The position numbers and the translations under genes were made by a program. From a virus, in the IMG/VR virus record IMGVR_UViG_3300030943_000170, positions 1 through 24,316 of that record: a stretch of 24,316 bases of DNA. One strand, written 5' to 3'. Below are positions 7,801-24,294 of the stretch, piece after piece. The notes beneath the pieces are model-generated. The model made no database searches, was not told where the DNA came from, and was given only the letters and a program-made list of their open reading frames with translations. Within the stretch, counting starts at the first letter, position 1. Every line of letters starts with the position of its first letter.

Positions 7801-9251
7801 CCTAGCGCGGTGACGTATGACGCGATGTGTGGCGAGACGATGTCGTGGAAGGAACCGAGGACCTTGGCGATGAATCCGCCGAGGATCGTGCTGGTCCGCT
7901 TGAACCCACCCGACATGTCAGACAGGAACGTGGACATCGGCTTTGCGGCCGCGCTCCAGAAGTTCTTGCCGATCTTCTTCTGAAGTGCAGACCACTGGTT
8001 GTAGACGCCAACGGCTTGCTTCTTCATGGTGGACATCGCCGTGGTGAGCACGATCATTGAGGTCGCGGCACCAGCGAAGATTCCAGGGAGCACCAATGCC
8101 GCAGGGGCGATCTGAGCGATGCTTCGACCGAGCGCAAACGCATCGGACGACATCGAGATCAGGTAGTTAGCTGCCTGCCCCAGCATGGTCGCCATCAGCG
8201 AGATCTTCGGGAGCTGCTCGTCGAGGTGCTTGAACGGTTCGAGCGTGACGAGGTTCTTGAACACGCGGCCACCGGAAAGTGCTCCGAGGCCAGTGATGAC
8301 GCCCCTAACAGACTTCTTGTCGAGGACTGTCTTGACGTGGGTGGTCATCACCTTGAGTCGCTTGAACCACAGCTCCAGCTCAATCTCAGCCTTAGCGAGG
8401 GTGGACTCGTCGACCTCAGCCTTGATCCGAATCGCGCTGACGTCGCTGAACAGGTTCTTCAGGCGAAAGCCGGCCGCTCGGACCGACTCTATGATCGGGT
8501 TGCCGATAGCCCTGCCGAACGCATTGCCAAGAATCCCCGGCATAGTCTTATTCGTGTCGCGGATCGAGTCGTTGACCAGCTTGCGGTACTGGTTCCGGAA
8601 GTCCTTGTCCGACCCGTTGTACTTGATCGGGACAGTGACCGTCTTGCCGCCGAGCCGGGCGACGACGTCGCGCTCGAAGTTCTTGGGATCGAACCAGGAG
8701 ACCTTGTTCGCCTCACCCTGAAGTTCGCTGCGCGCCTTACGTGCCTCATCGAGGAAGCCCTTGCCGAGGGAGGGGCTGATCGACACTGGGCCGAGCCCAA
8801 CCTCCACCTCCCGCGCGAGCTTCTGGAGTTGTTCCGGGTCAACCTTCATCCCCTTGGCGAGGGAGCTGTTGATGGCAGATGCGAACCTGCGGGTGATCGC
8901 TTCCTTGATGCCGCGATCCATCGCCTTCGTGAGGTCGAGCCCGTGCACGTCGGTGGAGAACGTGATCGGGTCAGCCTTGGACAGCCCCTCGGCGGCCTTG
9001 GTGGCTGCGAGGACGTCCTTGTCGAGTCCCTTGACCTGTGCGCGGAGGGCGATCCGAATCCGAGAGAGCCGCTTGACCTTCTGTTCGAGGTCAGCCTCCA
9101 TCTGCTCGGCCTGGAGTTCAGCCTCGACAGGTACCTTGGCGTCAACGCTAGACGTCTTCTCTTCCAGCTGCGCCTCAAGGTCCTGCTTGAAAAGTCGAGT
9201 GTCGGGCCAGATCCGGACGGCTACGCGACCGACGACCAGGGTACCTGCCAT
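4872..9251 (-). CDS. Tail tape measure protein
   Basis: This is the longest gene in the window (1459 residues) and lies just after the frameshifted chaperone pair, the standard position for a tape measure. It acts as the ruler inside the tail tube and is ejected ahead of the DNA. The N-terminus is a charged coiled coil (LEAQLEEKTSSVDAKVPVEA and beyond). Hydrophobic stretches lie around residues 360-410 (APAALVLPGIFAGAATSMIV), about 800-830 and 865-890, typical of segments thought to help DNA cross the membrane. The rest is long Ala/Ser/Lys-rich helix. At roughly 0.15 nm per residue the predicted tail is about 215-220 nm. ATG at 9251 follows a GGAGG six bases upstream. I see no lytic transglycosylase or peptidase motif. 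Confidence 0.95.
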   Translation of the reverse strand: MAGTLVVGRVAVRIWPDTRLFKQDLEAQLEEKTSSVDAKVPVEAELQAEQMEADLEQKVKRLSRIRIALRAQVKGLDKDVLAATKAAEGLSKADPITFSTDVHGLDLTKAMDRGIKEAITRRFASAINSSLAKGMKVDPEQLQKLAREVEVGLGPVSISPSLGKGFLDEARKARSELQGEANKVSWFDPKNFERDVVARLGGKTVTVPIKYNGSDKDFRNQYRKLVNDSIRDTNKTMPGILGNAFGRAIGNPIIESVRAAGFRLKNLFSDVSAIRIKAEVDESTLAKAEIELELWFKRLKVMTTHVKTVLDKKSVRGVITGLGALSGGRVFKNLVTLEPFKHLDEQLPKISLMATMLGQAANYLISMSSDAFALGRSIAQIAPAALVLPGIFAGAATSMIVLTTAMSTMKKQAVGVYNQWSALQKKIGKNFWSAAAKPMSTFLSDMSGGFKRTSTILGGFIAKVLGSFHDIVSPHIASYVTALGKGFSIIGGASPAIAHIVKTFGDLGAKATPRLAQWVADMTNKFSAWMKLKGKSGLNRMIEDAITNIKSLWNVAAGTQKILSGISKAATAAGGATLTSLGDSLQRIAKIVNSSGFQARLTNVFASARDAIENMVGVSGPAVSKMFRDIGDNADKLLPKVGIVAGKIIASFATVFDQPQVGNSILNFFDALNGTLDKLQPTLTNVSNGMAGVINVLAKMLTAFEPIVEIAFGALESHATGLLKSIQVVIENLSSGLATFMTDLLPAIDQLAPALLSLLENTSGDIKNILVVAGPAVEALLRLLAGAATVLSSIPGPLQGVFALALGGALAVKVALGGWKSVLGEWAVKAKAVGASVQESFKGSAISNFGSKLKGLVSNLAGIAIKAFMVSAALNAIGAALDTRQAVAGADALSLAMQKIQDNSDFSSLNTQLRNSMWPDAVNKFDDLTLSMKKFKDQTQGFSGNLTGLTDKILGFLGTADASNTQKLKDTFESYDQFLANLTKTDPSSATAIFDQLKAKAIAAGWSVEDLSKVFDDYQAAAALAAGKASGSFKKSAEEIAADAEAAKSSFLGTQNTMVNQMKLLGSKNKALIAHQLVQQRNTMLTEMAKTATGADKEILGKASALNDKISSATTKLGNATSKKAKEKYSKELDTLLATYQEKFGTDISTLLTGGSSGSDTMSAAISAMVGNGLTPEAKATLTSSIETPVNTAVDNAKIKIATLPGAITGLDIAGKVNAKVAEAQTAITTGAATITAGMSGTLITFAVTASTMASTAVGTLRTLVSASFGAIETGMSEYVIAFSTQSSLVEGMASTLRDRVKGNVTVDLSLQGAAAVNSFISGATSADSLSRVVAAAKLVGKTFKDNKGPLSYDRVMMVPEGKATVAGYVDGILSQVNAVKSAAKTVTNAAAGEFGSAADRAISAAATSSSIDKLAVSANQTVYTIGDVTVDVKELEGVKTIDQLAKTLRRKKRQAGGK

Positions 9252-9262
9252 TTAGGCCTCCA

Positions 9263-10014
9263 TTACTTCTTACCTCGCATGATGCGCTCGTAAAGATCCT
9301 TGACCGACTTTGGCCGATCCTCTTCCCGCTTCTTCGCCTTCTTGATCAGGAGCTGCGGGACGGGCCAGGGTTCAAACTTCGGCTTCTTCTTGAAGTTGCC
9401 TCTGGCCCTGGTGTTATCGTTGACCGCATTGAAGATGCCGGCCAGGACGTAGTAGTCAGGGTTGATGTCTAGGTATGTCCGCCAGTACTGTTTGTCTTCC
9501 ATCAGTGCCAGCGTCTTCGATCCCTCGGGGAGCCGTTCAACCAGTGACAAGACGAAAAGAGGGGCTATATCGCCATTGACCAAGTCTCTAAGATCTACGC
9601 CGTAGTAGTAGAGCAGGTCGGGATATAGCCCCTCACCGTAATCGTCTATCAGCTCCGCGAGGGCTAGGCTTCCCCCACCTGACCCTCATTCATGTAGGTG
9701 GTGAAGACCTCAGTAAGCACGGGAAGCTCGTCGCCCTCGTCCTCAGCGATGAGGGACAGGAACTCTTCCGCGACCGCCTTGTCGGCAGCTGCGACCAGAA
9801 GAACTCCCTTCATCGCTTCCTTTGGGCCGTCCAGTTCGTCGTCGTCCTCTGTGGGCTCGAACTTCTCCTGGAGCGCCATGAGCGCCTTGCGATCAGTCTT
9901 CGGGAGCCGGATGGGATTGCGCAGGACCAGAACGTCGGAGCCGCCGAAGTCGATATCGGTGGATGCGTACTTCCGGCCAACCGCTGCGCGGATGTCGTCA
10001 AGAGTCAAAGCCAT
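9263..10014 (-). CDS. Tail assembly chaperone, -1 frameshift fusion product (GT)
   Basis: Predicted fusion of about 250 residues. Ribosomes read the upstream frame from 10014 to the GGG codon at 9675-9673, slip back one base, and continue in the frame that ends at 9263. The downstream frame is closed just upstream of the slip and has no ribosome binding site of its own. After the slip it reads GSLALAELIDDYGEGLYPDL and continues through the Trp/Tyr-rich T domain to KDLYERIMRGKK. In lambda the equivalent gpGT coats the tape measure while G is in excess, and the arrangement is conserved in most long-tailed phages. A Met at 9583 within the T frame is not a likely independent start: it has no Shine-Dalgarno and would discard about 30 conserved-looking residues. 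Confidence 0.88.
9664..10014 (-). CDS. Tail assembly chaperone, unshifted product (G)
   Basis: This 116-residue acidic protein (MALTLDDIRAAVGRKY ... TTYMNEGQVGEA) is encoded between the major tail protein and the tape measure. ATG at 10014 has only a modest GAGAGG about 11 bases upstream. The protein is rich in Asp/Glu (EPTEDDDELDGPKE), as is usual for G-type chaperones that keep the tape measure soluble until the tube polymerises. The stop TAG at 9666-9664 lies just past the slippery run, so the frame ends four codons after the point where a minority of ribosomes would switch. It is a chaperone rather than a virion component if it behaves like its counterparts. Confidence 0.88.
   Translation of the reverse strand: MALTLDDIRAAVGRKYASTDIDFGGSDVLVLRNPIRLPKTDRKALMALQEKFEPTEDDDELDGPKEAMKGVLLVAAADKAVAEEFLSLIAEDEGDELPVLTEVFTTYMNEGQVGEA
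9670..9676 (-). promoter_or_regulatory. Programmed -1 ribosomal frameshift site (GGGGGAA)
   Basis: On the minus strand the codons read GTG GGG GAA GCC TAG. A slip of one base lets the P-site GGG re-pair perfectly and opens the T frame. G-rich heptamers of this kind occur at the same place in other actinobacteriophage chaperone genes. I did not identify a clear downstream pseudoknot. Confidence 0.8.
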
Positions 10015-10057
10015 TGTGGTGCGGACCTCTCATGGTCTGTGATTGGGATGCGGACAT

Positions 10058-10134
10058 ATGACGATCTGAGGGCCTCTCATTCCCGACCCAACCGCTCATA
10101 CTGGCTAGGTAGTGGAGGCCGCTCAGATCGTCAT
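10058..10134 (-). other. Large stem-loop between major tail protein and chaperone genes
   Basis: Arms 10058-10076 and 10115-10134 are complementary over 19 base pairs with a single one-base bulge, enclosing a 38-base loop. It sits in the 197-base gene-free gap after the tail tube gene. There is no U-tract, so it is better read as an mRNA processing or stability element, or a barrier upstream of the chaperone, than as a classic terminator. Confidence 0.75.
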
Positions 10135-10163: not shown

Positions 10164-10201
10164 CCTCCCCCGGCAGGGGTCCGCACGTCTACCGGGAGAG
10201 G
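10164..10201 (-). terminator. Candidate attenuating hairpin just after major tail protein
   Basis: Minus-strand RNA can pair 10192-10201 with 10164-10173 over 10 base pairs, including one U-G wobble, beginning 10 bases after the TAA of the major tail protein. The mismatch would be C-A on the plus strand, so the structure favours the leftward transcript. It lacks a U-run, so termination strength is uncertain. Confidence 0.5.
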
Positions 10202-10211
10202 GAGTTGGGGA

Positions 10212-10763: not shown

Positions 10764-10791
10764 TCTAAGTGGTTCTCCTTATGGAAATGGA

Positions 10792-10819
10792 AAAGCCCCG
10801 ACCGCTTGGCCGAGGCTTT
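10792..10819 (-). terminator. Hairpin upstream of major tail protein, twin of the one before the capsid gene
   Basis: A 12-bp stem (AAAGCC...GGCTTT ends, two G-U pairs) with a 4-base loop is followed on the minus strand by TTTT. It could be a weak intrinsic terminator of the upstream connector genes or a 5' stabilising hairpin left on the tail tube mRNA. It shares 12- and 8-base blocks with 13662-13688. Confidence 0.7.
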
Positions 10820-10839
10820 GTGTATCAGGAGGATTCCGG

Positions 10840-11340
10840 CTACAGGGGCCGACGAATCTTGAGGGAATAGGTCGTCTGGTATCGGGTGAATCCAGACGGC
10901 AGGTCCGCGTACTGCACGGGACCGCTTGACGGAGCCCAGTCGGAACCCTTTGCGGGTTCGTTGGTGACTCGCGCGCTGACGAGGTGCCCCAGGCCTGGAT
11001 AGACCTGTTGATCTGACGCAGCCTTGATGAGAGTCACGCGAATGGCCTCAGAAATGAGTGCCGCTTTGGAGTCACCGTCAGGGTCTTTCGTGAAGACCGC
11101 GACCTGAAGGCCGGCGCTGTCGACGAATCGAGGATCAGCTGCCCAGGCCCCGCTATTCACTCGCCGAAAGACGGCGAAGAAGTCGTAGGGTGCGGTCGAC
11201 TGAGGGATAAGCGAGAAACTCGGGAGGTCGGGAAGACCCGCGCGCATGATGGCTAGGGTCAGGTCCTCGACCGGGTACATCTGAACAGCTCGCTTGATTG
11301 ACTCCGGGAGATTGATGGCATCAAGCACCGTAGTACTCAA
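10840..11340 (-). CDS. Tail terminator protein
   Basis: This 166-residue protein (VLDAINLPESIKRAVQMYPVEDLTLAIMRAGLP ... YQTTYSLKIRRPL) caps the tail tube and joins it to the head in siphoviruses. The assignment comes from its size, its alpha/beta character with an N-terminal helix followed by FAVFRRV and a C-terminal strand, and its place directly before the major tail protein. The start is TTG at 11340 with GGAGGTGA five bases upstream. It overlaps the previous gene by 20 bases, so translation is coupled. The gene ends 20 bases before the hairpin ahead of the tail tube gene. Tail terminator is likely; neck protein is the alternative. Confidence 0.75.
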   Translation of the reverse strand: MSTTVLDAINLPESIKRAVQMYPVEDLTLAIMRAGLPDLPSFSLIPQSTAPYDFFAVFRRVNSGAWAADPRFVDSAGLQVAVFTKDPDGDSKAALISEAIRVTLIKAASDQQVYPGLGHLVSARVTNEPAKGSDWAPSSGPVQYADLPSGFTRYQTTYSLKIRRPL

Positions 11341-11677
11341 AGTTCACCTCCAATACCTCAGCTGCGACCATCGCGGCCGACGTAAGGATGAAGTGCCCGG
11401 GCTTGCCGAACTCGATCTCCCACGCGGCCCGTTTGTCCAGGTCATCGGAGTAGTGGACGAATCGGTCCACCCCCAGCGTGCCCTTCTCGCTATCGACGTA
11501 CGACTTGAAGCTTCCGGTGTATCGCGGATTCGCTCGAACCCGTGCAAGGTTTGCTTCAGCCCCAGCCAGAATGACTGCCGTTACTTCGTCTAGGCCAGCC
11601 TGCGCTTCGGGGAGTCGCGCCATCCACCATTCAATGGGGAAGCCGCTGATCTCCTTGTAGATCTCAACGCTAGCCAT
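11321..11677 (-). CDS. HK97 gp10-like head-tail/tail completion protein
   Basis: This 118-residue protein begins MASVEIYKEISGFPIEWWMARLP. I place the start at ATG 11677, eight bases inside the upstream gene and behind GGTGGA. Upstream in-frame sequence is open to 12004 but overlaps two other genes in the wrong frame and has the skewed Arg/Ser/Pro composition of a shadow frame. The central RVRANPRYTGSF segment and the late AAWEIEFGKPGHFI segment recall gp10-type proteins, where a conserved A..IEFG-like motif is usual. Such proteins help finish the tail or the head-tail joint. The position between stopper and terminator supports this; sequence similarity is weak by eye. Confidence 0.68.
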   Translation of the reverse strand: MASVEIYKEISGFPIEWWMARLPEAQAGLDEVTAVILAGAEANLARVRANPRYTGSFKSYVDSEKGTLGVDRFVHYSDDLDKRAAWEIEFGKPGHFILTSAAMVAAEVLEVNFEYYGA

Positions 11678-12023
11678 CCAGTCCACCGTTATCGGGGCGC
11701 TGGCGAATGATGAACGTCCAGTGCCGAGTAAGGCGCGTGCCTCGGTGGTGAGCAGGGGGTGAGACGATGTCCCACCACATGCCGTCCCACTGAACTCGTG
11801 ACCACATGTCGACGCCGGCCAAATCAGACGCGGTGCCCAGTTGATAGACGTTGATCCACTGCTGACCGGGGACCTCGGCTCGCGCCGACCGATCAGCCGA
11901 TACCCAGGCCTTGATCTCGATCGGCTCACCCAATGGGCGAACGGTCGTGTTCTGACGAGCGTCGGTCGTGGTGACTGAGGGGTAGATGGTGACGCCCACT
12001 CCACGGCGACGCTGCACGCTCAC
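11670..12023 (-). CDS. Head-tail stopper protein
   Basis: This 117-residue protein starts at GTG 12023, which overlaps the preceding TGA as GTGA and lies behind GGGTGGA. The in-frame extension to 12239 is rejected because it overlaps the adaptor gene and is shadow-like. The protein (SVQRRRGVGVTIYPSVTTTDARQ ... RLTRHWTFIIRQRPDNG) is beta-rich with conserved-looking VYQLGTASDLAGVDMWSRVQWDG and WDIVSPP segments. This matches the small beta-barrel stoppers that close the connector channel after packaging (SPP1 gp16/HK97 gp7 class). The order adaptor, stopper, gp10-like, terminator is the standard siphovirus connector cassette. Role inferred mainly from order and size. Confidence 0.7.
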   Translation of the reverse strand: MSVQRRRGVGVTIYPSVTTTDARQNTTVRPLGEPIEIKAWVSADRSARAEVPGQQWINVYQLGTASDLAGVDMWSRVQWDGMWWDIVSPPAHHRGTRLTRHWTFIIRQRPDNGGLDG

Positions 12024-12493
12024 CGAAGTCCACCCTCGAAGAGGGGGAAGGCCCTGCCCCAATCGCAGTCTTGGTAGTGCACCGGGTGACCCCTGGGAGG
12101 TCCCTGGCGGGTCGTGTAGGCGTTCATCTTCATGGTCCCGAAGGCTGGGATGTAGGCCGAGCCAAAGCGCTGTAAGCGCTCGATTTCCTTCTCGGTGAAG
12201 TACACGGTGCCGACGAACTCGGTGGGCAGTTCCTGCCATCCAAGGGTCTCGTCCGCAGCTCGTGACTGCGAGAACGCGTCCGGGTTGCGAATGAACCGTG
12301 CCACGGCCATCGCGACAAGACGTCGAATGGGGTCGGGGCAGGAGCCTGCATCCCAGGCGGGATTGCCGTAGTGTCGCGCTTGGTCGGAGGCGTCTTCGAT
12401 GTACTCCTCGATCACGGATTCCATGCCGTCGGTGGCACCATCTTCGAGGCGGGCGACCACTTTGTCCGCTGACGTAAGTGCGGAGTCGCTCAC
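12020..12493 (-). CDS. Head-tail connector adaptor
   Basis: This 157-residue protein starts at GTG 12493 behind GAGAGG. It is largely helical at the N-terminus (SADKVVARLEDGATDGMESVIEEYIEDASDQARHYG), then CPDPIRRLVAMAVARFIRNP. That helix-rich pattern, with the CP.P...LVA...R...NP segment, is typical of adaptor proteins (HK97 gp6/SPP1 gp15 class) that bind under the portal. It is the first gene after the major capsid protein, as expected. Its coding end overlaps the next start by four bases. A stable hairpin between the capsid gene and this gene (12519-12546) probably lowers its transcription relative to capsid. Confidence 0.75.
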   Translation of the reverse strand: MSDSALTSADKVVARLEDGATDGMESVIEEYIEDASDQARHYGNPAWDAGSCPDPIRRLVAMAVARFIRNPDAFSQSRAADETLGWQELPTEFVGTVYFTEKEIERLQRFGSAYIPAFGTMKMNAYTTRQGPPRGHPVHYQDCDWGRAFPLFEGGLR

Positions 12494-12518
12494 GTGAATC
12501 CTCTCTGTGGACGACTAA

Positions 12519-12546
12519 GTGAGGGGCTCCCGAAGGAACCCCTCAC
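12519..12546 (-). terminator. UUCG-tetraloop hairpin after the major capsid gene
   Basis: On the minus strand, GTGAGGGG and CCCCTCAC form an 8-bp stem, then one mismatch, three more pairs and a C(UUCG)G tetraloop, one of the most stable RNA loops known. It starts 10 bases after the capsid stop. The following sequence has only a two-base T-run, so partial termination or 3'-end protection of the capsid mRNA is more likely than full termination. Confidence 0.75.
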
Positions 12547-12556
12547 GGTCGTTGGA

Positions 12557-13639
12557 TTACGCGGCGTGACCCCAGCGCCGAGGGTCGGCAGCGGAGATCT
12601 CGGTGGCCGCAATCAGGTCAGCCTTGGCTGCACCAGTCGGGTAGACCGAGTCGGTGACAGCGCCATCGAGCGTGCCCTTGATGCCGCGAACGAAGAACTC
12701 GTTCAGGCTGTTCGGATCGAACGGCGTGTGCGGGTCATCGGTCGCCAGAACGTGCTTCGGGAGGAAGCGGTCCTTGACGAAGTTGTGGCCTTCCCAAGCG
12801 TCGATCAGGCTCCGGTCGGTGCGGAAGTCCATGTCGTAGTCGCGCAGCCAGCGCAGCGCCAGACCATCCACGTTGATGCCAGCGCCGAACGGATTCGACT
12901 GCGGCACCAGCGGGGCGCCCAGGAGCTGGACGAAGCCAGTGGCGACCATGAAGTAGACCTCACCGGCATCGATCGTGTTGTCCACGACGATCGTGAAGCC
13001 AGACAGGCGACCGATGATGGCCTCAGCCAGAGCGGTTCCTGCGCGGACATCGCCCACGTACTGGGCCAGGGTCAGCTTGTCGTCATCGAGCATGACCTGC
13101 TCCACGTCGGTGCCGACGATCGCGATGCGACCAGTCTGCGGAATGCCGAAGCGGTTGAGGACCTTGCGGGCCTCGTTGAAGGCCTTCTTGACGCTGTGAG
13201 TGGCGTCAGAGCCGATGCCGGCGATGGTCACCTCATACGGAGCCGAGGTAATCAGGTCGCACGCGGCCTGATTGATGCCAGCCGCGACAGCCTCGGACTG
13301 GGGGGCCAGGAGGCCGGCCCAACCGTTGAGGTCGAACTGGGCCTGCTCGTCAGTGAGGCGAGTGCCGTTGTAGATGTAGCCGCCCCAGGTGAGGGTCGTC
13401 TTGCCTTCCTTGTAGATGTCGAACTTGATCGGCGTATCGCGAGAATCGCGGAAGTTCATTCGACGGTACGGAAGGATGCCCGGCACGCGGTAGGTCAGGG
13501 TGTCGCCCTCGACTCCAGCGAACTTGCCGTAACCCTCGCGGGTAACGAGCTTCGCCAGCGTCAGCTTGGGCTCGACGAGATTCGCGGCAACGCCAACGAT
13601 CTTTTCGGGCTTGACGGGAACGTGCGGCGTGTAAGCCAT
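12557..13639 (-). CDS. Major capsid protein (P22 gp5-like)
   Basis: This 360-residue protein directly follows the scaffold gene. It forms the icosahedral shell. The sequence VNVDGLALRWLRDYDMDFRTDRSLIDAWEG near the C-terminus, and the earlier GDTLTYRVPG, NEARKVLNRFGIP and IGRLSGFTIVVDNTI segments, match the pattern of the P22 coat (gene 5) family common in actinophages, which has the HK97 fold with an insertion. ATG at 13639 follows AGGAG with a short spacer. Codon choice is clean and GC-rich, as in highly expressed genes. It is bracketed by a hairpin 22 bases upstream of the start and the UUCG hairpin downstream. No separate protease gene is seen, and cleavage of the coat is not predicted. 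Confidence 0.92.
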   Translation of the reverse strand: MAYTPHVPVKPEKIVGVAANLVEPKLTLAKLVTREGYGKFAGVEGDTLTYRVPGILPYRRMNFRDSRDTPIKFDIYKEGKTTLTWGGYIYNGTRLTDEQAQFDLNGWAGLLAPQSEAVAAGINQAACDLITSAPYEVTIAGIGSDATHSVKKAFNEARKVLNRFGIPQTGRIAIVGTDVEQVMLDDDKLTLAQYVGDVRAGTALAEAIIGRLSGFTIVVDNTIDAGEVYFMVATGFVQLLGAPLVPQSNPFGAGINVDGLALRWLRDYDMDFRTDRSLIDAWEGHNFVKDRFLPKHVLATDDPHTPFDPNSLNEFFVRGIKGTLDGAVTDSVYPTGAAKADLIAATEISAADPRRWGHAA

Positions 13640-13661
13640 GTGTTTCTCCTAGGAAACGCGA

Positions 13662-13688
13662 AAGCCCCGACCCGATTGGTCGAGGCTT
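13662..13688 (-). terminator. Hairpin upstream of major capsid gene, twin of the one before the tail tube gene
   Basis: An 11-bp stem (one G-U pair) with a 5-base loop lies between the scaffold stop and the capsid ribosome binding site. The minus-strand exit is CTTTCGCGTTTCC, only weakly U-rich. It shares AAAGCCCCGACC and CGAGGCTT (plus-strand reading) with 10792-10819. Confidence 0.7.
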
Positions 13689-13707
13689 ATTGGGGGTGAA
13701 GATTCGA

Positions 13708-14238
13708 TCAGAGCGTCTTACCGCGACGGAGAACCGAGGCAACAGCCGCTTCGACATCGGAGTTGTCGGCGTCATCGGCGGGATCGAGTCCGCCACTTGG
13801 ACGACGCTGAGGCTTCCTTGCCGTGGAGAACTTCTGGAGCTTCTTCGCGTCTTCCTCCAGCTCCTCGCGGGTGCTGCCCTTAAGGCGTTCCGCAAGTTCG
13901 TCTGGGAGATCGAAGCTGACCGCTACGAGCTTTCGCTCCAACTCAAGGACCGTGTCCTTGAATGCGGTGGATGCCGCCTCGAACTCCTCTGGAGTCTTGG
14001 CCGCGTTCAGTTGCTCCTGAAGGGTAATGGCCTTGGACCGGCGTGAGGCATTCTCAGTACGAAGATCCTTGATGACCTTCTGAGCCCACTCGGGAAGACC
14101 CTCGACGCCCTCGTCGCCATCGACATCATCCTTTCCGGATTCGTCCTCATTGGCGCCATCCTCTTCGTCGACCTTGGGCTCCTGGCCCTTGGCGTCGTCG
14201 TCGAGGTTGTTGTTGTCGTCGTGCTCGTTTTCTGGCAA
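13708..14238 (-). CDS. Scaffolding protein
   Basis: This 176-residue protein is very acidic at the N-terminus (PENEHDDNNNLDDDAKGQEPKVDEEDGANEDE). It has a long central helix (LRTENASRRSKAITLQEQLNAAKTPEEFEAA ... LERKL) and a basic tail (KPQRR ... VLRRGKTL), the classic composition of an assembly scaffold that organises coat subunits and then leaves. It lies immediately before the capsid gene. I choose TTG at 14238 because AAGGAG lies 7 bases upstream and it follows the stop of the MuF gene. The in-frame ATG at 14298 would overlap that gene by 46 bases and has no ribosome binding site. Confidence 0.85.
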   Translation of the reverse strand: MPENEHDDNNNLDDDAKGQEPKVDEEDGANEDESGKDDVDGDEGVEGLPEWAQKVIKDLRTENASRRSKAITLQEQLNAAKTPEEFEAASTAFKDTVLELERKLVAVSFDLPDELAERLKGSTREELEEDAKKLQKFSTARKPQRRPSGGLDPADDADNSDVEAAVASVLRRGKTL

Positions 14239-14252
14239 GGTATGCTCCTTGG

Positions 14253-15371
14253 TTAAGCCGATGCCTGATCGGCCTTCTTTCGGATTATGGAACGCCACTG
14301 CTTGAGGATGTCCTTGCCGTAGTACTCTCCGCGAACCTTCTGCTCGTACAGATCAGCAAACATCCGGTTCGGTGCGAACCGTGGGTCTGTGTCCAGCGAG
14401 GAAAGGTTGTAGATGGCTTCGGCGCGACAATGGCAGCCGGCGTGGTATTCGTCGGGATTGTTCCCGGCTTCATCGTTGGTGCCCCCGGCACCCTTCGACG
14501 AGTGGTAGAGCAGGGTTCGCGTTACGAAGCCCTTAGTGAGGAGGAGCGCACAGAACCCACACGGGTTCACATCTCCTTGCGGGTAGTGGACTCGGATGAA
14601 TCCCTTGACCCTGGAATCGGCATTGCCAGTCGCTGTCTCTGCGTGACGGGCGCCGTTCTGCACGATGCGATCCGCATGGGAAGCCACCAGGACTCCCACC
14701 TTCGTTTGCGCATCCTCGCGCTCGGCCTCCGTCTCCCTGGGGGTCTGCGTCTTGTCGTCCTGCGACAGATCGTTCAGAATCTCCTGGAGTCGGTCTGGGC
14801 CGAGGCCACTGATGACTCGCTGCGCTTCTGCGTCGAGGTCATCTTCGAGCTGGTCGAGAAGATCCTCGATGCCGTCAACCGATTCGACTTCGATATCGGG
14901 ATCGTCCAGCCAGTCTTCGATGTTGTACGGGTCGTAGTCCGACCCATCGGGGTTCTCGACCTCTTCGGCAGGAATGCCGTCACTTGGATCGAGATCGATC
15001 AGGCCTGAGTTCAGCGCCTCGGGGATGTACTGAACGAGCAGGTCGTAGAAGTCCTTGCGGAGCGTCGAGAGGGGAACTGCGTCAAGTTCCTTCGAGCCCC
15101 ACGTCTGGAATGTGTAGCCGGTCTGTAGGGCACGGAACAGTCGCATGAAGGCCAGGGCGATCATCTCGACCTGACTCCGCCTGATTCGCATCGCCTTGAC
15201 GGCGTCCTGTGTGAACTGGTCCCCGGAGGAGGAGACGCGAGCTTCGGTTGGGACGACGCCCTGCCAGAGAGCTAGGACCTCCGAAAAGGCCCTAGCTCCT
15301 AGGAGAACGATGGCTACGTGGTAGGTGGCTGCGACTGCACCGGCTTCGCTACGCCGCTGCGGGTTGACCAT
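14253..15371 (-). CDS. MuF-like minor head protein
   Basis: This 372-residue protein is encoded between portal and scaffold. The C-terminal part carries the MuF signature: PCGFCALLLTKGFV at about 270-283 and YHAGCHCRAEAIY at about 309-321. That gives C271, C274, H310, C313 and C315, a probable structural metal site or disulfide cluster. MuF proteins sit inside the procapsid near the portal (SPP1 gp7, Mu gpF). The middle (about 125-215) is strongly acidic and possibly disordered. There is no obvious serine protease or toxin domain fused at either end, unlike many actinophage MuF fusions. ATG at 15371 overlaps the portal end by 23 bases and has a weak ribosome binding site, suggesting coupling. 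Confidence 0.87.
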   Translation of the reverse strand: MVNPQRRSEAGAVAATYHVAIVLLGARAFSEVLALWQGVVPTEARVSSSGDQFTQDAVKAMRIRRSQVEMIALAFMRLFRALQTGYTFQTWGSKELDAVPLSTLRKDFYDLLVQYIPEALNSGLIDLDPSDGIPAEEVENPDGSDYDPYNIEDWLDDPDIEVESVDGIEDLLDQLEDDLDAEAQRVISGLGPDRLQEILNDLSQDDKTQTPRETEAEREDAQTKVGVLVASHADRIVQNGARHAETATGNADSRVKGFIRVHYPQGDVNPCGFCALLLTKGFVTRTLLYHSSKGAGGTNDEAGNNPDEYHAGCHCRAEAIYNLSSLDTDPRFAPNRMFADLYEQKVRGEYYGKDILKQWRSIIRKKADQASA

Positions 15372-20545: not shown

Positions 20546-21895
20546 TCACCCCGTAATCAGGTAGACGGTGTTCGGGTCCCAGGTGCCAAGCGCGGTGTAT
20601 GCGGCCTGGGTTCCTTGCCACCAGTGAGGGATCGCCGCGAGGGAGGCTGCGGCATTCGTTGCGGAAGTAGCTGCGCCAGTCGCTGAGGTGGCGGCTGCGT
20701 TCTTCGAGGTCAGCGCGTTCGCTTCGCTCGTCGCCGCATTAGTTGCTGACGTACCAGCTGCGGTCTGCGCGCTGACGGCCCCCGTCCAGGCGACCTGGGC
20801 GTCATGGGCTGCGTTACTCGCCGTACTGGAGGAACTGCCTGCATTGGTGGCGGACGTAGCGGCTGCCGTCCTAGATCCGTTCGCAGCTGAGGCTGAGCTG
20901 GCCGCGTTCGTCGCAGAGGTTGCAGCCGCCGTTTCGGAGGCGTCTGCCGCCGTGGCCGCGTTGGTGGCGGTTGTCGCAGCTGTCTGAGCCGCTGTCTTTG
21001 AGGAGTCAGCGGCGGCGGCTGAAGCGGTCGCCGATGACGCCGAACTGGTAGCCGAGGTCGCGGACGCAGCTGCACCAGTGGCGGACGTGGAGGCTGCCGT
21101 CGCCTTCGTGGTCGCGGTGGTCGCTGCGGTAGTGGCGTCATTGGCCCTGTTGCCTGCGGTGCTCGCGTACGTAGCTGCGGCTGAGGCAGAGTTCGCCGCA
21201 TCGGTCGCGTGGCTCGCTGAGGTCGTCGAGGAGCTGGCCGCTGCGGTGGCCTTCGTCGTCGCTGTGGCGGCAGAGGCTGCGGCAGCTGTGGCTGATCCGG
21301 CTGCGGCGGTTGCGGAGGTGGTTGCGCTACTCGCGCTAGCAGTTGCGCTGGCGGTCTTCGTAGCGACGTCCTGTGCGCTTGTGGCGGCACTGGAGGCCGA
21401 GCTGGCTGCGGACGTTGCAGAGCTGGCAGCCGAGGACGCTGAAGCCGAAGCGGTGCCCTGGGCGGCAAGTGCTGTGGCGAGGATTGTCTCCGCTTCGCCA
21501 ACCTTCGCGACAGTCTCGTCGTGGGCAGTGGTGGTCGTATTGGTGAGGCCCTGGACGGTAGCGACGGCGGACTCCCATGCGGGAACGTCACTCTCTGTCG
21601 GGATCAGCGTCTTGGGGTCGACGTCGACCAGATCGCCGTAACTGACGACTTCGTCCGTCTCGGGCACTACGACGTAGCGCGTGAGGAGGCCCTCTTCGAT
21701 CTCCCAGCACCAGTCGACACCGGTCGACGCAAGCGGGATCTCGATCGCCTTAGTCACGGTCAGGCTGAAGCCGGCCGGCGTCACGACGTGGTCATCGACG
21801 ACCCGGCGCTTCGATGGAGTGAAGTTCATCCGGACGGTGGCCGGCGCTTCCCCGGTTTCTGCCGGCTTCCTAAGGTCAATCAGGACCTGTGTCAT
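20546..21895 (-). CDS. Tail fibre protein with long Ala/Ser/Thr coiled coil
   Basis: This 449-residue protein has three parts. Residues 1-130 are a globular beta-rich domain (TQVLIDLRKPAETGEAPATVRMNFTPSKRRVVDDH ... TVTKAIEIPL), an attachment head of the kind seen at fibre N-termini. Residues about 135-420 are an extreme Ala/Ser/Thr repeat with heptad-like spacing (units such as AATSATNAASSA), as in the lambda Stf/T4 shaft-type coiled coils; it should form a long trimeric stalk. The last 25 residues (HWWQGTQAAYTALGTWDPNTVYLITG) are a common fibre-tip closing motif. I choose ATG 21895 with GAGG ahead rather than the in-frame TTG at 21907, which has no ribosome binding site. It is adjacent to the module-repeat protein, and the two probably form one receptor-binding apparatus. 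Confidence 0.78.
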   Translation of the reverse strand: MTQVLIDLRKPAETGEAPATVRMNFTPSKRRVVDDHVVTPAGFSLTVTKAIEIPLASTGVDWCWEIEEGLLTRYVVVPETDEVVSYGDLVDVDPKTLIPTESDVPAWESAVATVQGLTNTTTTAHDETVAKVGEAETILATALAAQGTASASASSAASSATSAASSASSAATSAQDVATKTASATASASSATTSATAAAGSATAAAASAATATTKATAAASSSTTSASHATDAANSASAAATYASTAGNRANDATTAATTATTKATAASTSATGAAASATSATSSASSATASAAAADSSKTAAQTAATTATNAATAADASETAAATSATNAASSASAANGSRTAAATSATNAGSSSSTASNAAHDAQVAWTGAVSAQTAAGTSATNAATSEANALTSKNAAATSATGAATSATNAAASLAAIPHWWQGTQAAYTALGTWDPNTVYLITG

Positions 21896-22617: not shown

Positions 22618-22818
22618 GGAGCTGCGGGAGGCGAGGAGGTTAGCCTCTACCGCGTTTTCGGGGTGGGTGTAGGAGTGGAGTAGGCGCGTAGCGTCGCCTC
22701 GTTCTTAAGCCGCCGATAGGCTCGGTTCCTCAGCGCGAATCGCGCATCACCTGCCTTGACCGTTTGGCTGCACGTTTAGGGAATATGCCCTTATACCAGA
22801 CAGCGGCCTCCACTTCAG

Positions 22819-22890
22819 TCCGAATGGAGGGACTCGAACCCCCGCACCCCTGAATCCAAATCAGGTGGCCTGCCGCTGGCCTACATTCGG
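22819..22890 (-). tRNA. tRNA-Pro (anticodon TGG)
   Basis: A full cloverleaf can be drawn: acceptor CCGAATG/CATTCGG (perfect), D stem GGCC/GGCC with loop AGCGGCA, anticodon stem CCTGA/TCAGG with loop TTTGGAT, variable GGTGC, T stem GGGGG/CCCTC with loop TTCGAGT, discriminator A73. CCA is not encoded. C1-G72, A73, G35 and G36 agree with proline identity. Position 37 is A, not the G37 nearly universal in bacterial tRNA-Pro. It is downstream of tRNA-Gln in the same leftward transcript. The gene may supplement decoding of CCA/CCG proline codons in late genes. Confidence 0.88.
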
Positions 22891-22932
22891 TAAGACCCCC
22901 GAAGTACGCATCGTCGAGAGGCGTCGGAGGTA

Positions 22933-23008
22933 TGGTCGGGGTGGAGGGAATCGAACCCTCGGGGGCCTGGTTCAGAGCCAGACTGGGCTGCCAGCAACTC
23001 ACGCCCCA
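22933..23008 (-). tRNA. tRNA-Gln (anticodon CTG), irregular D arm
   Basis: The anticodon stem TCTGG/CCAGG holds loop CTCTGAA (anticodon CTG, A37). The T arm GAGGG-TTCGATT-CCCTC is perfect, the variable loop is CCCCC, and CCA is encoded (22933-22935). The acceptor TGGGGCG/CACCCCG has a U1-G72 wobble and a C6-A67 mismatch. The D arm does not pair in the standard register. Shifting one base allows GAGT/GCCC with one A-C mismatch. Length without CCA is the normal 73. It is either a functional but divergent tRNA or one beginning to decay. Confidence 0.78.
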
Positions 23009-24174: not shown

Positions 24175-24294
24175 GTGCCTTACCTCACTACAGTCACGAG
24201 CTGGAGCGTGTGTCATGTCAGTAACATGACTATGGCTAGGCAGAACAAAGATTCTGCGCATGACTTTCAAGTTGCACAATGTACCTCCCACTAG
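24175..24294 (+). CDS. Small plus-strand hypothetical protein
   Basis: This 39-residue frame starts at GTG 24175, eight bases after a perfect AGGAGG (24161-24166). It ends at TAG 24292-24294. The peptide reads MPYLTTVTSWSVCHVSNMTM... and ends DFQVAQCTSH, with no recognisable family. An alternative GTG at 24173 in another frame gives only 18 codons. AGGGGGAA overlaps the stop and may serve a further gene beyond the window. Position after the only good plus-strand promoter suggests the first gene of the divergent, probably early, unit. Confidence 0.45.
   Translation: MPYLTTVTSWSVCHVSNMTMARQNKDSAHDFQVAQCTSH
24212..24230. promoter_or_regulatory. Perfect 7-bp inverted repeat, operator-like
   Basis: GTCATGT and ACATGAC flank CAGTA. 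It lies within the start of the small plus-strand ORF, downstream of the rightward promoter. It may be a repressor site or an mRNA hairpin. Confidence 0.5.

Follow-up and report, generated by a model that had tools for sequence, protein, structure and literature searches.

Terminator-shaped leader hairpins before the major tail and capsid genes of an R4-like Streptomyces-type siphovirus suggest that late genes have a conserved control point

The window analysed here, a stretch of 24,316 nucleotides (positions 1 to 24,316 of IMG/VR virus record IMGVR_UViG_3300030943_000170), belongs to an R4-like Streptomyces-type siphovirus from soil, and 170 Streptomyces phages match its DNA, each at less than 80% identity. 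Its late genes are located on the minus strand, which is the messenger RNA (mRNA) strand, and two of them, encoding the major tail (tail tube) protein and the major capsid protein, are each preceded by a compact leader hairpin, the element considered in this article (Table 1). The window was extended to 51.3 kb through a second contig, with an overlap of 10,949 identical bases (100%). The extended genome encodes a serine integrase as well as a repressor of the R4 type, and from this gene content the phage is judged to be probably temperate.

Table 1. Features surrounding the two leader hairpins, in window positions (z values compare folding energies with dinucleotide shuffles)
Feature	Position	Strand	Details
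Leader hairpin before major tail gene	10792..10819	-	12-bp stem, AAGC loop, U-rich tail TTTTCCATTT; -19.9 kcal/mol, z -5.6
Leader hairpin before major capsid gene	13662..13688	-	11-bp stem, tail TTTCGCGTTT; -19.3 kcal/mol, z -3.7
Whole tail leader	10769..10836	-	Hairpin, U-rich spacer, Shine-Dalgarno (SD) sequence AAGGAGA; alignable with capsid leader, score 63 vs shuffle maximum 39
Whole capsid leader	13640..13705	-	Hairpin, spacer, SD AGGAGA; alignable with tail leader, score 63 vs shuffle maximum 39
Major tail protein gene (tail tube), 183 aa	10212..10763	-	phrog_117, E 2.2e-41; ~60% identical to Streptomyces Arquatrovirinae phages
Major capsid protein gene (major head protein), 360 aa	12557..13639	-	phrog_283, E 3.1e-40; 40-44% identical to Arquatrovirinae
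Tail terminator gene, upstream of tail leader	10840..11340	-	phrog_123, E 1e-14
Scaffolding protein gene, upstream of capsid leader	13708..14298	-	phrog_233, E 3e-16
Strong hairpin after capsid gene	12519..12546	-	-22.9 kcal/mol; no U-rich tail, class apart from leader hairpins; position conserved in relatives
Strong hairpin after tail gene	10164..10202	-	GTGCGGACC in loop region

As mRNA, the tail-leader hairpin reads AAAGCCUCGGCC-AAGC-GGUCGGGGCUUU and the capsid-leader hairpin AAGCCUCGACC-AAUCG-GGUCGGGGCUU. The exact block AAAGCCCCGACC occurs in the window at 10792-10803 and 13661-13672 only, and the hairpins end 28 nt (tail) and 22 nt (capsid) before the ATG, the coordinates, shared blocks and distances agreeing with a sequence-only reading of the window. 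That reading had regarded the two hairpins as copies of one element, and the likeness is larger than it had noted: the leaders can be aligned across about 70 nt, from GAATCyTC upstream to TTTCC..AGGAGAAmCAC downstream, with the ribosome-binding site (RBS) region included, and the alignment score of 63 compares with a best score of 39 among 3000 dinucleotide shuffles. This score was tied by 1 of 2668 cross-genome pairings of a tail leader with a capsid leader (L111 with L145; L-numbers are labels of the compared genomes or contigs, R4 being L222). No third hairpin copy was found elsewhere in the 51.3-kb genome, and the endolysin gene of the phage has no hairpin ahead of it. Since the likeness covers the spacer and the ribosome site, it suggests that one leader was copied from the other, the tail leader probably having arisen from the capsid leader.

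Conservation was assessed in 93 genomes carrying both genes, mostly from IMG/VR, in which starts were placed by homology and gap lengths are approximate. The pre-capsid hairpin is present in nearly all of them, and it occupies a gap of 63-78 nt in 16 of 16 annotated Arquatrovirinae phages, which also carry a stronger hairpin after the capsid gene and another after the tail gene. Of the 90 scorable genomes, 29 have a pre-tail hairpin (among the 16 annotated phages, phiHau3 only) and about two thirds lack it; its distribution on a quick tail-protein tree requires at least 10 changes, 3 of them forced by well-supported branches, and it has been gained or lost repeatedly. Equally good structures were obtained in 9 of 480 and 7 of 336 shuffles for the leader hairpins, and in 274 of 480 for the coding sequence ahead of the tail gene in genomes without a gap. 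Stem sequences are wholly different between clades, whereas position and pairing are kept; in Camvirus, one stem pair varies among G-C, C-G and G-U with 100% pairing across nine sequences. In the more distant phages D29, Bryce, Amyev and Ashes, the post-capsid hairpin is kept and no long pre-capsid leader was seen, which makes after-gene hairpins an old and widespread feature and leader hairpins one of the group to which the window's phage belongs. Concerted evolution of both hairpins in every genome was also considered and set aside, the overall signal (p<5e-5) being partly clade structure.

The sequence-only reading had proposed a covariance-model search of related genomes. A covariance model (R1), based on 15 capsid leaders from other phages, detects both the capsid leaders and the tail leaders of held-out genomes, the latter with E values of 1e-5 to 4e-3 (L101, 1e-5; L111, 3e-5; L073, 3e-4; L134, 7e-4; L031, 9e-4). 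Together with the pre-capsid hairpin being kept despite wholesale sequence change, this result supports the view of one element in two places that is under selection in relatives. When applied to 20 whole records at E below ~0.01, the model recovered 17 capsid leaders, some of which belonged to the training set, 9 tail leaders and 33 other matches. Among these 33, many are located 13.6-15.5 kb downstream, in front of endolysin genes from different families (phrog_9589 and phrog_1493), some precede tail proteins, including a tail-fibre-like gene, and some are ordinary terminators; the model also matches the integrase/gp54 junction of R4, where convergent genes meet and a terminator would be expected. 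The earlier claim that the element marks the two most abundant virion proteins and no others holds in the window and fails in the relatives, where the tail copy is often missing and other genes carry the leader. A further common feature is TYNUCAUGCCC between hairpin and SD: searched as T[CT]N?TCATGCCC, it was found at 20 places within 847 kb of late regions, and 19 of these places are in capsid or tail leaders; its copies in the window spacers have drifted to CATTTCC and CGTTTCC.

The leader hairpin with CATGCCC or a close variant lies at 21819-21864 in R4, ahead of the endolysin (so named in the R4 annotation), and the same arrangement is observed before endolysins of different enzyme families in L231-L234, L236, L237 and L240.

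The presence of one leader before tail proteins and before endolysins of unlike families could also indicate a module boundary, that is, a conserved linker for recombination of gene blocks, with the hairpin as a by-product because terminators make good shared homology. The repeated changes of the pre-tail hairpin on the tree and the L111-L145 match, which equals the window's own pair, are compatible with such a linker. It is nevertheless improbable, since what is conserved between clades is the pairing and not the stem sequence, while a recombination linker would need the reverse.

The leader hairpin of R4, Caelum, Celia and phiHau3-type genomes includes GTGTGYAAGTG. Each genome has many copies of this motif, located at gene boundaries and nearly always oriented with transcription, and from this distribution it is presumed to be the stoperator of R4/Caelum/phiHau3-type phages; R4 stoperators have been reported for the R4 phage family (PMC10276819). 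The capsid slot is occupied by either a U-tailed hairpin or the GTGTGYAAGT stoperator-like motif. On this basis the window hairpins themselves could be taken for stoperators, the DNA sites of the phage repressor, but the phage has an oriented motif of its own, TGTGYAACTTG, with 9 sites (at most 1 mismatch) against 1.3 expected and none at the hairpins, and the hairpin arms are present only twice in 51.3 kb instead of in many oriented copies. The stoperator reading was thus rejected for the window and is very improbable. TGTGYAACTTG, close to the R4-type TGTGYAAGTG, is the probable stoperator of this phage; it was identified by Gibbs sampling of gene gaps, simple k-mer counting and approximate 12-mer counting having revealed no stoperators. 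One site is located at window positions 24267-24279 (minus strand), and 8 more are found in the rest of the 51.3-kb genome.

A U-rich tail, defined as at least 5 T among the 8 nucleotides after the stem, follows 29 of 68 non-stoperator leader hairpins (20 of 49 capsid, 9 of 19 tail), compared with 0 of the 159 hairpins that lie behind these genes (Fisher, 4e-18) and 0 of 33 stoperator-type capsid leaders (8e-6). The window hairpins match intrinsic terminators in their GC-rich stem-loops (11-12 bp, -19 to -20 kcal/mol), and their arms, AAGCCTCGRCC..GGTCGGGGCTT, recur exactly in about 35 other viral contigs, mostly a short distance past a stop codon and with a T-run behind them. In L183, L193 and L186, which represent three unrelated viral lineages among those checked, the window's exact hairpin is located 17-34 nt past the major head gene. 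The sequence-only reading had offered, among its mechanisms, a weak terminator followed by a new promoter. U-tails and after-gene use in unrelated viruses lend support to the weak terminator, but a new sigma-70 promoter between hairpin and ATG was rejected, as the 22-28 nt available are mostly RBS, leave no room and contain no sigma-70-like site.

The recurrence of the arms in many unrelated viruses would also be expected if the window contained two unrelated ordinary terminators, alike through the shared intrinsic-terminator consensus and without any special role. The likeness of the two leaders within genomes of the terminator type (p 0.013) weakens to p 0.07 without the window, which agrees with that explanation. 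It is unlikely even so, given that the likeness reaches the spacer and RBS, that a model derived from capsid leaders detects the tail leaders of other genomes, and that the hairpins are placed at specific gene starts.

Overall, the hairpins suggest that late genes have a conserved control point, and the reading tentatively preferred is that of a terminator-like leader, tied to gene starts, that would act as a conditional barrier to transcription. It is favored because of the terminator shape, the alternation with stoperators, the use before endolysin, a gene harmful if leaky, and the recurrence of the hairpin behind genes of unrelated viruses, as a terminator. The leader consists of a GC-rich terminator-shaped stem-loop about 20 nt past the upstream stop codon, a U-rich stretch and a ribosome site, with the ATG 22-28 nt after the stem. 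The hairpin would serve as a leaky or conditional intrinsic terminator ahead of the capsid and tail tube genes, at which stray transcription entering the prophage late operon would halt, and which the late lytic polymerase would pass by mass action or putative antitermination; in sister clades, a repressor stoperator in the same slot would do the same job through a bound protein. A precedent is provided by Tn916, which is insulated by a terminator that an antiterminator overrides (PMC11658703). A broader proposal, speculative and rather doubtful as a whole, is that R4-like temperate phages possess a family of leader hairpins forming a late-gene lock at capsid (and tail and lysis) starts, evolutionarily interchangeable with repressor stoperators, the lock being a bound protein in one clade and an RNA terminator overridden by lytic transcription in another.

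Several points weigh against the conditional barrier. The U-tails of the window are weak, with 5 and 4 T of 8 after the GC stem, and neither hairpin was picked up by a simple terminator scan, in which T was counted only past the stem's A-U end. With the covariance model, the two copies in the window reach no better than E~0.4, and their membership of the family rests on position, structure and their likeness to each other, not on the model. Moreover, a terminator has no need of a conserved CAUGCCC or of constant spacing from the ribosome site, and a barrier ahead of the most abundant proteins would be costly during lytic growth.

The main rival, possible but less probable, is a 5' leader that stabilizes mRNA or aids translation, as exemplified by the papBA pilin operon and the T7 gene 10 leader. 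A putative cut or start upstream would leave the hairpin at the 5' ends of the capsid and tail mRNAs, where it would block 5' decay and keep a U-rich, unstructured landing site open to the ribosome. This role is favored by the tight ribosome-site spacing and the conserved spacer: in non-stoperator clades the hairpin lies ~23-24 nt past the preceding stop codon and a median of 25 nt (capsid) or 31 nt (tail) from the ATG, a narrow distance by which it would escape both ribosomes, and TYNUCAUGCCC sits between hairpin and SD in leaders only. In addition, the sense strand of capsid leaders folds better than the antisense strand (42 vs 29, p 0.026), and the strong hairpins after the capsid and tail genes could guard 3' ends. 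Shielding of a downstream operon segment by a 5' structure is established in Escherichia coli (PMC5927463), and an RNA-seq account of L5 is worded as if capsid gene 17 were the read peak (PMC5712189). However, a 5' leader role leaves unexplained the confinement of U-tails to leader hairpins, the stoperator swap and the use before endolysin, whose product is not needed in bulk. The barrier and 5' leader roles can coexist. An attenuator-like switch, in which the 3' arm pairs with GCCCC near the SD, was rejected; it is striking by eye in some relatives and weak in the window, and own pairing did not exceed swapped pairing (capsid, p 0.08; tail, p 0.80).

Additional features were observed elsewhere in the window. 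In the post-tail gap, GTGCGGACC of the post-tail hairpin (10178-10186, minus strand) is complementary to GGTCCGCAC (10019-10027, minus strand), which overlaps the tail assembly chaperone's ribosome site. The mean length of the longest complement of this kind is 8.9 nt across 87 post-tail gaps, against 5.6 nt when the ends are shuffled, and matched changes on both sides occur in L122 (TGTGTGGC:GCCACACA), L154 (TGGCGGACTC:GAGTCCGCCA) and L111 (TGCGGACTCCTC:GAGGAGTCCGCA). This complement looks like a conserved pseudoknot that would hide the chaperone start, and it is possibly more novel than the paired leader hairpins. The same gap contains a 77-nt near-perfect palindrome (10058-10134, -46.5 kcal/mol) with 13-bp perfect ends ATGACGATCTGAG, which accounts for the unusual gap length and has no other copy in the viral contigs searched. 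Two open reading frames at 9263-10014 (minus strand) match the tail assembly chaperone families phrog_330 and phrog_393 in the pattern expected of a programmed frameshift pair. Genes for tRNA-Pro(tgg) and tRNA-Gln(ctg) are located at 22818-23008 (minus strand), near the left end beside an HNH gene; tRNA was the sole match in an Rfam 15 scan of the window, in which neither leader hairpin rose above the gathering score.

It is poorly known in actinophages how capsid and tail-tube subunits in their hundreds and only a dozen connector copies are made from one late operon, or how a prophage silences its capsid and tail-tube genes. A conserved RNA element at late starts, swapped for stoperators in sister clades, makes this question open to direct experiment, and the covariance model R1 offers a means to look for such leaders in other phages.

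In the open literature searched, no description was found of a leader hairpin preceding the capsid or tail genes of a phage, although several known systems share individual features. The papBA pilin operon has a 5'-protective intercistronic hairpin that likewise precedes the gene of a major structural subunit inside an operon (PMC5927463); there, cleavage and stability were measured, whereas the window leaders were described from their sequence. The late Rho-independent terminators of SPP1 (PMC6316719) are also U-tract stem-loops that separate clusters of late genes for which no matching late promoter was found, but they stand after the capsid and tail tube genes (8775-8815 and 11255-11304) and none directly before either. 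The stoperators of L5/R4-type phages (PMC6550527, PMC10276819) occupy the same intergenic slots, are oriented with transcription and are thought to stop the polymerase in the prophage; they are multi-copy, protein-binding DNA motifs, unlike the window hairpins, which have two copies and another sequence. The SAS/ESAS of cluster K mycobacteriophages (PMC3203893) similarly combine an inverted repeat with a short sequence just downstream, close to the translation start; the arrangement recurs ahead of some of the genes, and related phages retain it at the corresponding ones. In the relatives of the window's phage, an inverted repeat with a short asymmetric sequence is kept at several starts, the short sequence having diverged in the window. 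Cluster K ESAS consist of 17-bp imperfect repeats and the 13-bp GGGATAGGAGCCC, while the leader hairpins are compact and terminator-shaped, have a U-rich tail, carry CAUGCCC in relatives, precede few late genes and change their stems freely. Because GGGATAGGAGCCC is, by inspection, absent from both window leaders, these are not classed as ESAS members. The leader hairpin is real, conserved and start-associated, and it combines an ESAS-like placement with a terminator-like form in a stoperator-like slot.

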